The position numbers and the translations under genes were made by a program. This document shows positions 41,818-63,300 of a stretch of DNA of 64,000 nucleotides, piece after piece; position 1 is the first letter of the stretch; each line of letters opens with the position of its first letter. Source of the DNA: Luscinia megarhynchos. Its lineage: Eukaryota > Chordata > Aves > Passeriformes > Turdidae. The stretch is from contig JAPFBE010000002.1 in assembly GCA_034336665.1 (NCBI GenBank), positions 74,961,405 through 75,025,404 of the forward strand, given 5' to 3'. A model generated the notes under the pieces. That model did no database searches, had not been told where the DNA came from, and worked only from the letters and a program-made list of their open reading frames with translations.

Positions 41818-42660
41818 CTAAAAAGATCTTCTTAGAGGAAGACTATACTTGCCTGCATCTTTAGCTTGCCTCTGGTGGGGTGAAACACCCGTGACAGCTT
41901 CATGTCTGCCATGGCACAAACCAGGCTGTGTTTCCACAGTTAACACCTGAACCCCCACAGCTCTTACAGATAAGACTGTAGATAAGTGGCTATAGCCACG
42001 GCCACATTGTCCCTTTGAAGCTGAATATGATTCTCTTACATCTGCAAGTGTGGAACTTCCTCTAGAGAAATGCATAAGCCCTGTGCTGAGGAGAGTGGGC
42101 AGGATTGCCAGCAACAGGGCTGCTCCCCATCCCATAGGAATCCCTTATCCATATCCTCTGAGGTGTTCCTGCCCCTGCAGCCCAGTACCCCAGGGTGACT
42201 GCTGCCACATCACAGTAATTCCTCTGCAGAGATTCAAGCTCCAGAAGAGGAACAATTGCAGGGTCTTGGCCACAGACTCCTCAATCACAATGGAGTCCAT
42301 GGACAGCCAGTCTGAGGGCACAAATAAGCATTCTCCCCTTCCCCTGGCAGAAGTGATGCCTCTCCCTAGGCATGGGCATGGATTACTGCTGATGGCACAA
42401 CCAGTAGGGCCAGGAAGTTTGACCAGATGTGGTGTCACTTGGGGTGGGAGGTGCAGGGATGGCAGCAAACAGACAAAAACCTCAGCTGTGAGGTACATTG
42501 GCATCCACTGGCATCCATTCTGGAGCTGAGAGACTGCTGTCTCCAGGGCTCTGAAGGAATGATGTGTGATGGGCATACAGACAGGACAGGATTTCCCCTT
42601 TTAGCTGATGCCTGTCCTCACACCAACCCAATTCCCTGGGGAACAGAAAAAAATTTCCTG
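41818..42660 (-). other. Unclassified GC-rich block with a long, nearly open minus-strand frame
   Basis: This is the most open non-CR1 stretch in the window. On the minus strand a single reading frame runs from 42576 to 41818, about 250 codons. It is broken by only one TAA (42147..42145), and an ATG follows three codons later at 42135. The second half starts with a hydrophobic, signal-peptide-like segment (Leu/Ala-rich, about residues 4-20 of that ORF). A 159-codon plus-strand frame (42050..42529) overlaps it, so low stop density from base composition is a strong alternative explanation. I recognise no domain, see no splice-site pattern, and find no TATA/poly(A) pair of the kind seen in the LTR at 34.2 kb. 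It may be a decayed retroviral or host gene copy, or an unclassified repeat. Confidence 0.3.
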
Positions 42661-51475: not shown

Positions 51476-51480
51476 GTCAT
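51476..51480. repeat. Target-site duplication (GTCAT), left copy
   Basis: GTCAT immediately precedes the TGTC terminus of the LTR and is repeated exactly at 52048..52052. A 5-bp duplication is typical of several avian ERV integrases. Confidence 0.8.
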
Positions 51481-52047
51481 TGTCTTGGTTTAGCAGTGAC
51501 ACTCCCAATTTAGTGCCCTCTGAGGCTCTCCCAAATGAGATTCCACTAGCTCGGTCCCACCCCTTTCCTGCCCCCTTCCCACTCCGGGGATAGAGAGGAG
51601 AATTGGAGGCACAAAGGGGTGAAAATTGCAGTTTGAGAAAAGAACAATTTGCTGGAAACAGAAATGAGATTTTTTTTAAAAAGGGAACAGTAACAGCAAA
51701 AATATTAATAACAAAAGGTGTAAGACAAAAACCTATTTACACGGAAAGCCCATGCCCGATACCAACCAGCTTTTCCACACCACACCACACTTTCTCCCTA
51801 CTGGAAAAGGAATGCCTTTTTTTCCAGGAAACCAGAGAACAAGTCCTTCTCCTCCACCTCTGGTAATGATGTAAAATGGTATTAACAACATTTGGGTGGT
51901 GGCCCACTCAGCAGGGCACACAGCAGCCCACTGCTCCTGGGCTCAAGCAACCCGACCCAGTGGCTCAGTCTCCCAGCAGCTGGGCCACAGGCACACACCA
52001 CCACACCTGGCTACTGCAAAAAAATAACTCTGGAAGAAGCTAGGACA
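51481..52047 (-). mobile_element. Solo ERV LTR (567 bp) nested in CR1 and carrying 7SL-like sequence
   Basis: The element starts TGTCTTGGTTTAGCAG and ends CTAGGACA. The two ends form a short inverted repeat (TGTCTTGG against TGTCCTAG) with the LTR hallmark TG..CA, and they are bounded by the perfect 5-bp duplication GTCAT. I assign the minus strand because in that orientation it ends GCTAAACCAAGACA, like the 3' termini of related passerine LTRs. The U5-like part before that end (51545..51700, with GGTGGGACCGAGC and TTTTCACCCCTTTGTGCC) also resembles them. I could not find a canonical TATA box or AATAAA on that strand. Its first ~36 bp (52047..52012) are followed by about 115 bp of 7SL-related sequence. 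Internal retroviral sequence is absent, so it is solo. Confidence 0.75.
51897..52011 (-). pseudogene. 7SL (SRP) RNA-derived segment inside the LTR
   Basis: On the minus strand the segment starts GCCAGGTGTGGTGGTGTGTG, then CCTGTGGCCCAGCTGCTGGG, AGACTGAGCC, GGGTTGCTTGAGCCCAGGAG and GTGGGCTGCTGTGTGCCCTG, then CTGAGTGGG. This aligns collinearly with the first ~105 nt of vertebrate 7SL RNA (GCCGGGCGCGGTGGCGCGTG, CCTGTAGTCCCAGCTACTCG, GGAGGCTGAG, GGATCGCTTGAGTCCAGGAG, CTGGGCTGTAGTGCGC). By eye the identity is roughly 75-80% with two small gaps and one insertion. Many differences are CpG to TpG/CpA decay. The part after the CCAGGAG block follows 7SL, not primate Alu, which diverges there. It keeps the 5' Alu-domain end of SRP RNA but lacks the S domain, so it is not a functional SRP RNA. 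The A-box region of the internal Pol III promoter is mutated at its CpG sites. Confidence 0.8.
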
Positions 52048-52052
52048 GTCAT
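52048..52052. repeat. Target-site duplication (GTCAT), right copy
   Basis: Exact repeat of 51476..51480. CR1 sequence resumes directly after it. Confidence 0.8.
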
Positions 52053-60249: not shown

Positions 60250-60279
60250 TATATAAATATGTATATATGTATATGTGTG

Positions 60280-60334
<55 letters not shown>

Positions 60335-60354
60335 ATGTATATGTACATATATAT
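60250..60354. repeat. (TATATG)n hexanucleotide microsatellite
   Basis: A core of about eleven GTATAT units runs from 60281 to 60345, flanked by variant TATATA and GTGTGT units. The period of six leaves several frames open on both strands, producing spurious alternating-residue proteins that should not be annotated. It is likely to be length-polymorphic. Confidence 0.97.
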
Positions 60355-63300
60355 GCTGGGCCAAAATTCCATTTCTTTCACTTCAAAACAGTGAAAAGAC
60401 TAAAGGCATCTCCATCTTGCAGCATACTAATTGCAGAGTAAGTGCATGAATACATTAAACCAAACCCAAAGGTGAGAAGAAGCATTCCTAGACAGAAAAT
60501 CAAGCTGTCTCATGAGGACCAACTAAAATTTCAGTTTTCTCTAGCACAAGAAATTAAGTTGTGTAAGATCAATATCACCAACAGATGTCTTGGGAAGTTT
60601 TCTTCTTCTGGGTACAACTTTTTCCTCATGGACTTGGGGTAAAGCTGAATCTTCAATAAGTGATTTAAGTTATTCTCAATCTTAAATAATTAACCTAGTC
60701 AAAAAAGTCGCAGAATATTAGAAAAAATGTATCTTTTTTAATCAGTCAGAATGTGTAATGTGTTGTGATACTTTCATAAGGGACTCAATATGTATTATAC
60801 ATCTATTAAGGATTATGTATAGATCTGCATAGAGAGAGTCTGGTAGCCAAAGGCATAATCTTGTTTGATAATCTGTTTATCCCTAGAGTCCTTACTAGTG
60901 TAGTAGCTTTCTTACTGAATAAATTCTTTAGTAATTAGTCAAATTTAGTTTTAGTATGCTTGAATATTTCAGTCATGAACTTTGATTAACTATGATCTGA
61001 GACTAGAAGAGAGGAAGCATGTGCTGATTAAAGGACACTTCTCAATCAGCTCTGAGGAAAGATGTTTTAATATGTCCCCATAACTAGCAGTCTCCTGTTA
61101 CTTACTTCTTCCTTTCTTGAAAATTTTTTTGGCAATACCCAGCCAGTCCTACTTCATTTCATATATGTATAAAATAGTTCTTGTTTTCAAATTCTCACTC
61201 TGCTTTTCTTTTTTAAATTTCATTACACTGAACTCAATTCTTCAATTTATTTTAAAAAAAGATCCAATTTTACCTTTGTTCACTGGATGATTAAGAAACT
61301 GCTTTTTGTTACCTATCTTACATGCAGTAACATTTTTGTTAAAATATTTTAAGTTAAATCAAGCATAAAACTGAGTATTCCTATTATTTAATGTGTCTCT
61401 CTTTCCCATTGGCATAATTCTTTGTTCATGGTCATGCTGGGTTTAGATTTTATTTTATCAGATTGATTATGAGACTGTCACATCAGGCAATACCAAGAGC
61501 TTTAAAAATGAGACTAAGTCTTACCTATCATCTGTCTTATCATTTATCCACCAAGTCAGTTATTGCACCAAAGGACTAAGTGAGAAATGACACTTTGAGC
61601 TCACAGTATGTTAGTTTCCACCCATGGCTTGAGTGATGTATTTTGTTTTGTGCTAGAATCTTTATGTTTCAATAAATAACAGAAGCACTTAGGTCCATGG
61701 AACACAACTTCCCGAGGCACTGCGAAAACTAATGCACAGTATTTGACATTATTATGACAATATTCATGAAAACAACAGTTGGTTGTTTTTGCTTTTCTAA
61801 TCAGTTATCAATTGCAATGTCAAACACCAGATGGGAGCGGAAGTTATTAAATTTTTTAGAGACAATGGTAAAAGTTGACATAAGCCTGTAAATTATTTTT
61901 CCATTCCCTCTGTTTCTGAAACACTTCTGATAGATTAGATCTTCTATACAGTCATTCTATCATTTATTTTTTCCAGAATATGACAGAGCTTCTTGATAAA
62001 ACTTGTCAAAATTTATAAAGATGTTTATGGAAGATTTAGAAAACAAAATTAACTTCTTAACCTATTCTATTTGACAGTGATTATTGATAATGTCCAAGAA
62101 AATGATCTTGGATTGAAATTAAGTCACAGAAATCAGAAAAGAAGGATTGCCTAGTGTACACCAGCAATTGCTCTCTCAGACTCAATAGATAGTGGAAATT
62201 ATAGGAAATTGCATTTCTCCTGTAAATTAAGACATGCTTGTATTAGGCTTGCTTGTATTGAATAGAAATATTGAGAGGTAGCAAAAGTTATAATGCACGT
62301 GTTTTAAAAAGAAATTAGATGACAACATATAACACAGATTAAAAAGTTCTGAAGAAAGACAGGTTTTGATCACTTCAAACCACAAACTCAACATTCAGAG
62401 AAAAATGAATCCATGTTTGATTACTGTGAATGGAAACGTAAATTTCTTTTGTAAGGTCCCTTGAGTTGTTTTTGTCATTTTAAAATTTAATGCATTGATA
62501 AACATAAATCTGAATATTCTTTCACTACTCATATTTCTGCTAAAACTTTGGTTTTGCTAATTCTTTGGTTCCTAAAGCTGCACAGTGCAAAAAAAGGGCA
62601 TACTTGACAGGTAAATAAGTCAACCACACCAGTCAGTCTAAATATACATTAGCACTATACTGAATTCCAAAATGCTTCTCAGTTGTCCTCACTTTCCCAT
62701 CTGGCTTGAATAAAAATTTTTCCAATCTCCTTGAAAACTGCAGTCACTATTCATGAATTTTGTAGTCAAACAGAAATTGTGTGATGTCAGCAATACAGTC
62801 AGCTAATCCTTCTCAGGAATTCTGATGTGAAGGTTGTAACCTAAGATGATGACTCATCTGAAAAATTGTTTGTTCCTGCCCCTTTCTCTGACTCAGGGCA
62901 GATAGTTTTGTTATTTCAAAAAGTCAGAATTTGAATCCTAACAAATTCATTAAATTCCATGTGTTTTTCCTACTAAGTGCTTAAAGATTAAATTATGTGA
63001 CCACCAAGAGGAAGAATATATTGATTAATAATTAATCACCTTGGAGAATCCTTGATTAAAATCCATTTGCTTATGTACTGCATTAATATTGTTACAAATG
63101 TTATTCACTTTGTCCTGTACTCAGTTTTGGGAAGGAGAGGAGAGGATTCTTTAACAAGTAATTATATGAATTTATGTATCTCGGGTCAGGCCTCAAATGC
63201 AAAAAAAGTCTTGCCTGTAATCTCAATAGGACAATTATGGAAGAAAAATAGAATTTATTATGGGATCTTACTGTCATTCCATGATTGTTTACAAGTCAAA

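Follow-up and report, generated by a model that had tools for sequence, protein, structure and literature searches.

A 7SL RNA-derived segment shared by LTR copies of an endogenous retrovirus in Luscinia megarhynchos, probably captured by template switching

How does a piece of 7SL RNA come to lie inside a retroviral LTR of a bird, and does it do anything there? The question is raised by a 64 kb stretch of DNA from Luscinia megarhynchos, hereafter the window, which carries on its minus strand a solo ERV LTR of 567 bp (51481..52047). The element has the terminal TG...CA of an ERV LTR (TGTCCTAG...AAGACA), and two copies elsewhere in the genome, L009 and L091, align with it from end to end. It is flanked by a perfect target duplication, as the preliminary description of this DNA had reported. 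The duplication is 5 bp long, read directly as GTCAT on the two sides (51476..51480 and 52048..52052) and within the ERV range of 4–6 bp; for the copies L009 and L020 the flanking duplication is unclear. The 64 kb hold no second match to the 567-bp LTR. The family is multicopy and dispersed, at least 39 other genomic loci matching the whole LTR (41 matches, the LTR itself and 39 other loci with one locus found twice, among the best 40 of 345 candidates). Elsewhere in the window there is a TATATG tandem repeat of 15 copies (60264-60355), and the longest open frame (41996-42529) has no Pfam match.

The 7SL-derived segment lies on the minus strand at 51902..52011 and is homologous to nt 1–108 of the genome's own 7SL gene, as judged from alignment, genome search and shuffled sequences. 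An earlier placement at 51897..52011, starting about 36 bp into the LTR and in LTR sense, proved very nearly right: the match is real, runs from 52011 to 51902 and occupies LTR positions 37 to 146 in LTR sense. Our reference was the 7SL gene L043 (G000:C9:59352745), which scores 236 bits to Rfam RF00017; a second, near-identical gene, L042 (C9:59467917), lies about 115 kb away in the opposite orientation. Aligned to L043 cut at nt 108, the window segment agrees at 85 of 106 aligned bases. Its ends stay where they are when the gene is left uncut and scoring is strict; lenient scoring extends the alignment, with gaps, to nt 150. When the genome was searched with all 298 nt of the gene, the window copy matched over nt 1–108 at 75% identity (E value 5.9e-10). 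Against a human 7SL reference the score was 96, and none of 1000 dinucleotide shuffles came as high (mean 33, maximum 50), which rules out a chance likeness. Alu contamination was also ruled out. The segment runs on through 7SL nt 60–108 and is common to six dispersed copies, and of four copies compared, three are closer to the genome's own 7SL than to the human one, the fourth fitting both equally (L020, 54.0 with human and 53.5 with its own, about equal).

At gathering score Rfam finds nothing across the whole window. The segment itself reaches 20 bits with RF00017 and L009 31.9 bits, where the cut-off is 70, and mir-1268 matches the segment at 39.6 bits (gathering 83). A scan of eight loci with E up to 1 gave an RF00017 match in L009 alone, L020 and L024 having none. 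Such low scores are expected, because the fragment is a decayed third of the RNA.

The segment is found at one and the same internal place of the LTR in six copies: the window, L009, L020, L024, L058 and L091. Among the 39 loci that match the whole LTR, three bear it (L009, which is the same as L008, L020 and L024), with local scores of 62–108 against human 7SL; the remaining 36, some of which have no readable LTR 5' end, score at most 40. Two further copies came from a search with the 5' part of the LTR (L054, within L058) and from a search with the 7SL gene (L091), and a search with the 5' end of L020 gave six matches and no new bearing copy. Against the 7SL gene cut at nt 108 the identities are 85/107 in L009, 81/104 in L020, 67/87 in L024, 57/69 in L058 and 77/101 in L091. 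With the full-length gene the matches cover nt 1–108 in the window, 1–75 in L009, 1–92 in L020, 20–106 in L024, 40–108 in L058 and 5–106 in L091. Strict pairwise scoring places the 3' ends at nt 108, 75, 92, 106, 115 and 115, in the same order, and lenient alignments of the bearing copies go further 3' than strict ones. In L009 the 7SL part is interrupted at about LTR positions 117–140 by an extra 23-bp insertion behind CCCAGGA (after nt 75), and a pairwise alignment across this insertion covers 7SL nt 1–108. Each of the six copies has a single LTR within the DNA examined, which was 64 kb for the window, 4–5 kb for L009, L058, L059 (the L020 copy) and L060 (the L024 copy), and 0.7 kb for L091.

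Relatives without the segment are common. A query with the 7SL-free 5' end of L034 gave 39 non-self matches among the best 40 of 112 candidates, and in all of the 32 that were fetched the site is without 7SL, small gaps aside; a typical empty site reads GCAGTAGCC(A/T)GGAGGGGGCATGGCC. Of the seven unfetched matches six fall within loci already examined and one begins past the site, and L101 and L106, alike at the empty site, may be one duplicated locus. The query is itself 7SL-free and favours free copies, and the count therefore says that the free form is common without giving a ratio. Clean empty sites had been named beforehand as the sign of a late insertion. They do exist, but a late insertion into one copy is not implied: because six copies share the insertion, the empty sites are to be seen as the prior state of the LTR family. 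With 32 of 32 fetched relatives empty and five other copies sharing the insertion of the window, the most likely order is that one LTR lineage first acquired the 7SL piece and spread afterwards.

The borders of the segment were read from a comparison of bearing and free LTRs, and their limits are approximate. At the 5' junction zone (52006..52014, minus strand) LTR GTAGCCAGG meets 7SL nt 1, and the two overlap in GCCAGG (LTR) and GCCGGG (7SL nt 1–6); the LTR is left at GTAGC(C/T)(A/G)GG, followed by 7SL nt 1, in the window, L009 and L020. At the 3' junction zone (51895..51910, minus strand) 7SL GAGCGGGC (nt 101–108, in the window GAGTGGGC) passes into LTR, which resumes at ATGGCCAAGAC, at a place where the 7SL-free LTRs read GAGGGGGCATGGCC. 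This join is clearer in L091 and in L058, where GAGTGGGC is followed by ATGGCCAAGACCC. The copies give no sharp 3' end of 7SL: LTR GGCCAAG resembles 7SL GTCCAAG, which leaves the exit anywhere from about nt 101 to 115.

In the 7SL-free L030 both crossover matches, GCTGGG and GAGGGGGC, adjoin each other exactly at the insertion place. The former agrees with 7SL nt 1–6 at 5 of 6 bases, as do equally well 3 of 395 positions, and the latter with nt 101–108 at 7 of 8, the best position of the stretch and a level reached by 61 of 114363 LTR/7SL 8-mer pairs; in the 7SL-free L034 the 3' match drops to 6 of 8. Since the two matches in L030 stand side by side, little or no LTR sequence would be missing, and by this reading of the sequences the U3 would have gained about 95 net bases.

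In the 25 bases past the segment none of the six copies has more than three A in a row, and none has a repeat adjoining both segment ends; the absence of tail and duplication first noticed in the window holds throughout. Short words shared by the flanks within 25 bases occur in L020 (GTTATTT) and L058 (GTTATT), off the segment edges. A SINE1 stands free, ends in an A or LINE-like tail and is bounded by a duplication of its own; here both sides pass into LTR in six of six copies.

We propose, with a probability of roughly three in four, that an ERV reverse transcriptase left the viral RNA within U3 for 7SL RNA and then returned to it, and that the insertion afterwards spread with the LTR. The ERV RNA would have been reverse-transcribed in a particle that also contained 7SL RNA. 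Minus-strand synthesis in U3, heading to the 5' end of the RNA, would quit the viral RNA at the G-rich GAGGGGGC, restart on 7SL RNA at GAGCGGGC and continue to 7SL nt 1. It would then return to viral RNA at GC(C/T)(A/G)GG, where the copy of the first bases of 7SL, GCCGGG, could pair. The U3 would gain its extra bases with no clear loss of LTR and, because the insertion lay in U3, the provirus would carry 7SL in both LTRs and pass it to later copies; at least six of these remain, decaying as neutral DNA would. An intact 7SL 5' end, a missing 3' end, matched joins and the lack of tail and duplication are what is expected of a template-switch product, and LINEs give the reverse. The preliminary description had suggested that 7SL was captured during reverse transcription and then spread as part of the LTR, and this is the part of its interpretation that gains from the junctions and from the six copies sharing segment and place.

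To place the window copy among all 7SL sequences of this genome, the search with the whole 7SL gene was used, and all 13 of its candidates were scored. They are two genes, six LTR copies (lineage A), one provirus (B) and four satellite-borne sequences (C). Ten are joined to ERV sequence, two are the genes, and the last, on C353, is ERV-linked by its likeness to the C431 locus alone. No free-standing 7SL retrocopy was found by this search, which can miss diverged ones.

Provirus B (L051/L055, at C17:18311349; L051:862-3098 and L055:1-2584, G000:C17:18310716-18315483) has LTRs that are 94.6% alike over 614 bp and a primer-binding site that we take to be of the tRNA-Lys type. Directly behind this site, before the leader, lies 7SL nt 4–109 with 96–97% identity. 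An open frame starts inside the 7SL and reaches the protease and reverse transcriptase part behind the leader, with a reverse transcriptase match and a sub-threshold protease match, and RNase H and integrase domains follow; a scan of three frames showed no gag or env domain. At the 3' join GCGGGCG is common to 7SL and leader, and the related leader L067 has the same bases. A query with the leader of B gave no second copy with 7SL behind the leader among the best 40 of 374 candidates. By eye, the provirus sits in a tandem satellite with a unit of about 36 bp.

The sequences of chimera C are found in L044 (C337), L045 (C431) and L046 (C524), where 7SL nt 4–212 adjoins the antisense U3 of a B-like LTR (76 bp, 80–82%). 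In L044, the sole copy with its edges read, ATGACT stands on both sides, inside a satellite repeat. The fourth sequence, L092 (C353), has 7SL nt 16–79 in the same kind of array and resembles the C431 locus at the 92% level, with no LTR part observed. The arrays are GC-rich satellite on small contigs. It seems that chimera C is one insertion multiplied with its satellite array.

From these three cases we tentatively suggest, at a little under even odds, that in this lineage 7SL has been copied into the genome mainly or solely by ERV reverse transcription rather than by LINEs, and on no fewer than three independent occasions (LTR lineage A, provirus B and chimera C). The exits from 7SL almost coincide in lineage A and provirus B (about nt 108 and 109) and lie presumably near the Alu/S domain boundary. 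This near coincidence would point to a preferred exchange point or to a discrete 5' fragment of 7SL as template.

A preferred exchange point could also mean that one site of the LTR received 7SL repeatedly, and the exit of provirus B at nearly the same base, 109, can be read in that way. So can the tree of the LTR part after the segment, where the bearing copies do not group: the five bearing rows need 4 changes, and the AU test narrowly rejects their monophyly (p 0.048). No clade of bearing copies appeared in an earlier FastTree run either. This tree has 29 rows, 5 bearing and 24 labelled free, some of the latter without a readable 5' end (rows under 240 bases were dropped and L091 was left out), and it is star-like, with 2 of 26 branches starred; moreover, recombination can swap LTR tails. 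Recombination between LTRs or re-insertion at a hotspot could explain the lack of a clade, but the matching ends favour one event. The 5' end is nt 1 in the window, L009 and L020, and for five of the six copies one alignment or another puts the 3' end near nt 104–115; L009 joins them when aligned across its insertion. We consider repeated insertion unlikely, though it survives better than the other alternatives.

LINEs produce most mammalian 7SL copies, and a LINE (CR1-type) could in the same manner have put a 7SL transcript into one LTR copy that spread afterwards, which would yield the same shared place. The segment, however, has a complete 5' end and lacks the 3' end, the reverse of LINE truncation, and neither A tail nor adjoining duplication is present in the six copies, whose junctions show sequence overlap. 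Together with the census, in which none of the 13 matches was seen as a free-standing retrocopy, this makes a LINE quite improbable as the agent.

Marginally less probable still is that the ancestral LTR had 7SL and that most copies deleted it between the short end repeats. Junction matches could equally promote a deletion and are also expected around one, and the polarity therefore rests on how frequent the empty form is and on the letters of its 3' join. All 32 fetched relatives are without 7SL, by a 7SL-free query biased to free copies, and a remnant left by deletion should retain GAGC or its decay product GAGT. Read by eye, where 7SL has C the 32 free copies have C in none and T in one, and most have G.

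The remaining question is whether the segment does anything in its host LTR. Outside CpG, 83–91% of the 7SL letters are kept in the six copies, and about half of the CpG letters in the 7SL segments are lost. The window segment folds no better than its shuffles (z +0.34), and for nt 1–50 in four copies 38–61% of 500 simulations of neutral decay were as stable. The 5' domain is interrupted by a gap in L024 and largely missing from L058, and in the Pol III box region the letters of the aligned copies differ from those of the 7SL gene. The segment thus decays like neutral DNA with no sign of structural constraint, the fold of the Alu domain does not stand out, and the Pol III promoter or SRP-fold role once suggested for it is unsupported. 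That the segment was retained as a Pol III promoter or SRP9/14-binding fold in the U3 is very improbable, for although six copies survive and nt 1–50 contains the 5' Alu-domain hairpins, the 3' strand of that domain lies outside the segment and decay and folding are as just described. At a neutral rate near 2e-9 per site and year, the decay suggests, very roughly, an age of about 50–100 million years for LTR lineage A, and a loose estimate for the LTRs of provirus B is about 13 million years.

Encounters between retroviral enzymes and 7SL have a history. Chen, Cywinski and Taylor reportedly showed in 1985 that 7S L RNA is reverse-transcribed by an avian retrovirus. We recognised no germline 7SL-bearing LTR lineage among the titles and abstract openings listed by searches of open-licence PMC text, the main text of a paper on songbird LTRs does not contain the term 7SL (PMC6523648), and viral contigs had no exact match to a 29-base 7SL pattern. 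If the proposed capture is true, germline 7SL in viral DNA, which in one case travelled with an LTR lineage, shows that a packed RNA can leave a heritable mark, and the exchange points become readable across bird genomes. The dispersed 7SL-derived sequence described here would also be a case that is no SINE.

According to sections of a review on host RNAs in retroviruses (PMC4997597), these viruses pack 7SL, its reverse transcripts have been seen in endogenous reactions, and an experimental recombinant has had 7SL patched into it; the review also says that, the primer tRNA apart, no packed host RNA has been shown to play an essential part in replication. The reverse transcription of 7S L by an avian retrovirus is alike in enzyme and template, but its transcripts are reaction products, whereas here the element is integrated and propagated (see PMC4997597). 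The laboratory recombinant likewise has 7SL patched into a retroviral genome, but it is experimental, and the present segment is in a germline LTR and common to at least six copies. Retroviral transduction and patch repair, as outlined in the same review, rely on template switches that are non-homologous, occur at microhomology and take a host RNA as tertiary template, and the case described here would differ in that the host RNA is 7SL and the product a multi-copy LTR lineage. Well-defined SINE1 elements are known only from Euarchontoglires and hagfish (Alu, B1 and SINE1-1_EBu), by the account in PMC7245038. They are also mobile sequences that start at the 7SL 5' end, but they are mobilised by LINEs and have their own promoter, whereas the carrier here is an LTR and the 7SL part is contiguous from nt 1 to about 108. 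The process therefore has laboratory precedents, and what appears new is a germline record of it in the form of an LTR lineage.
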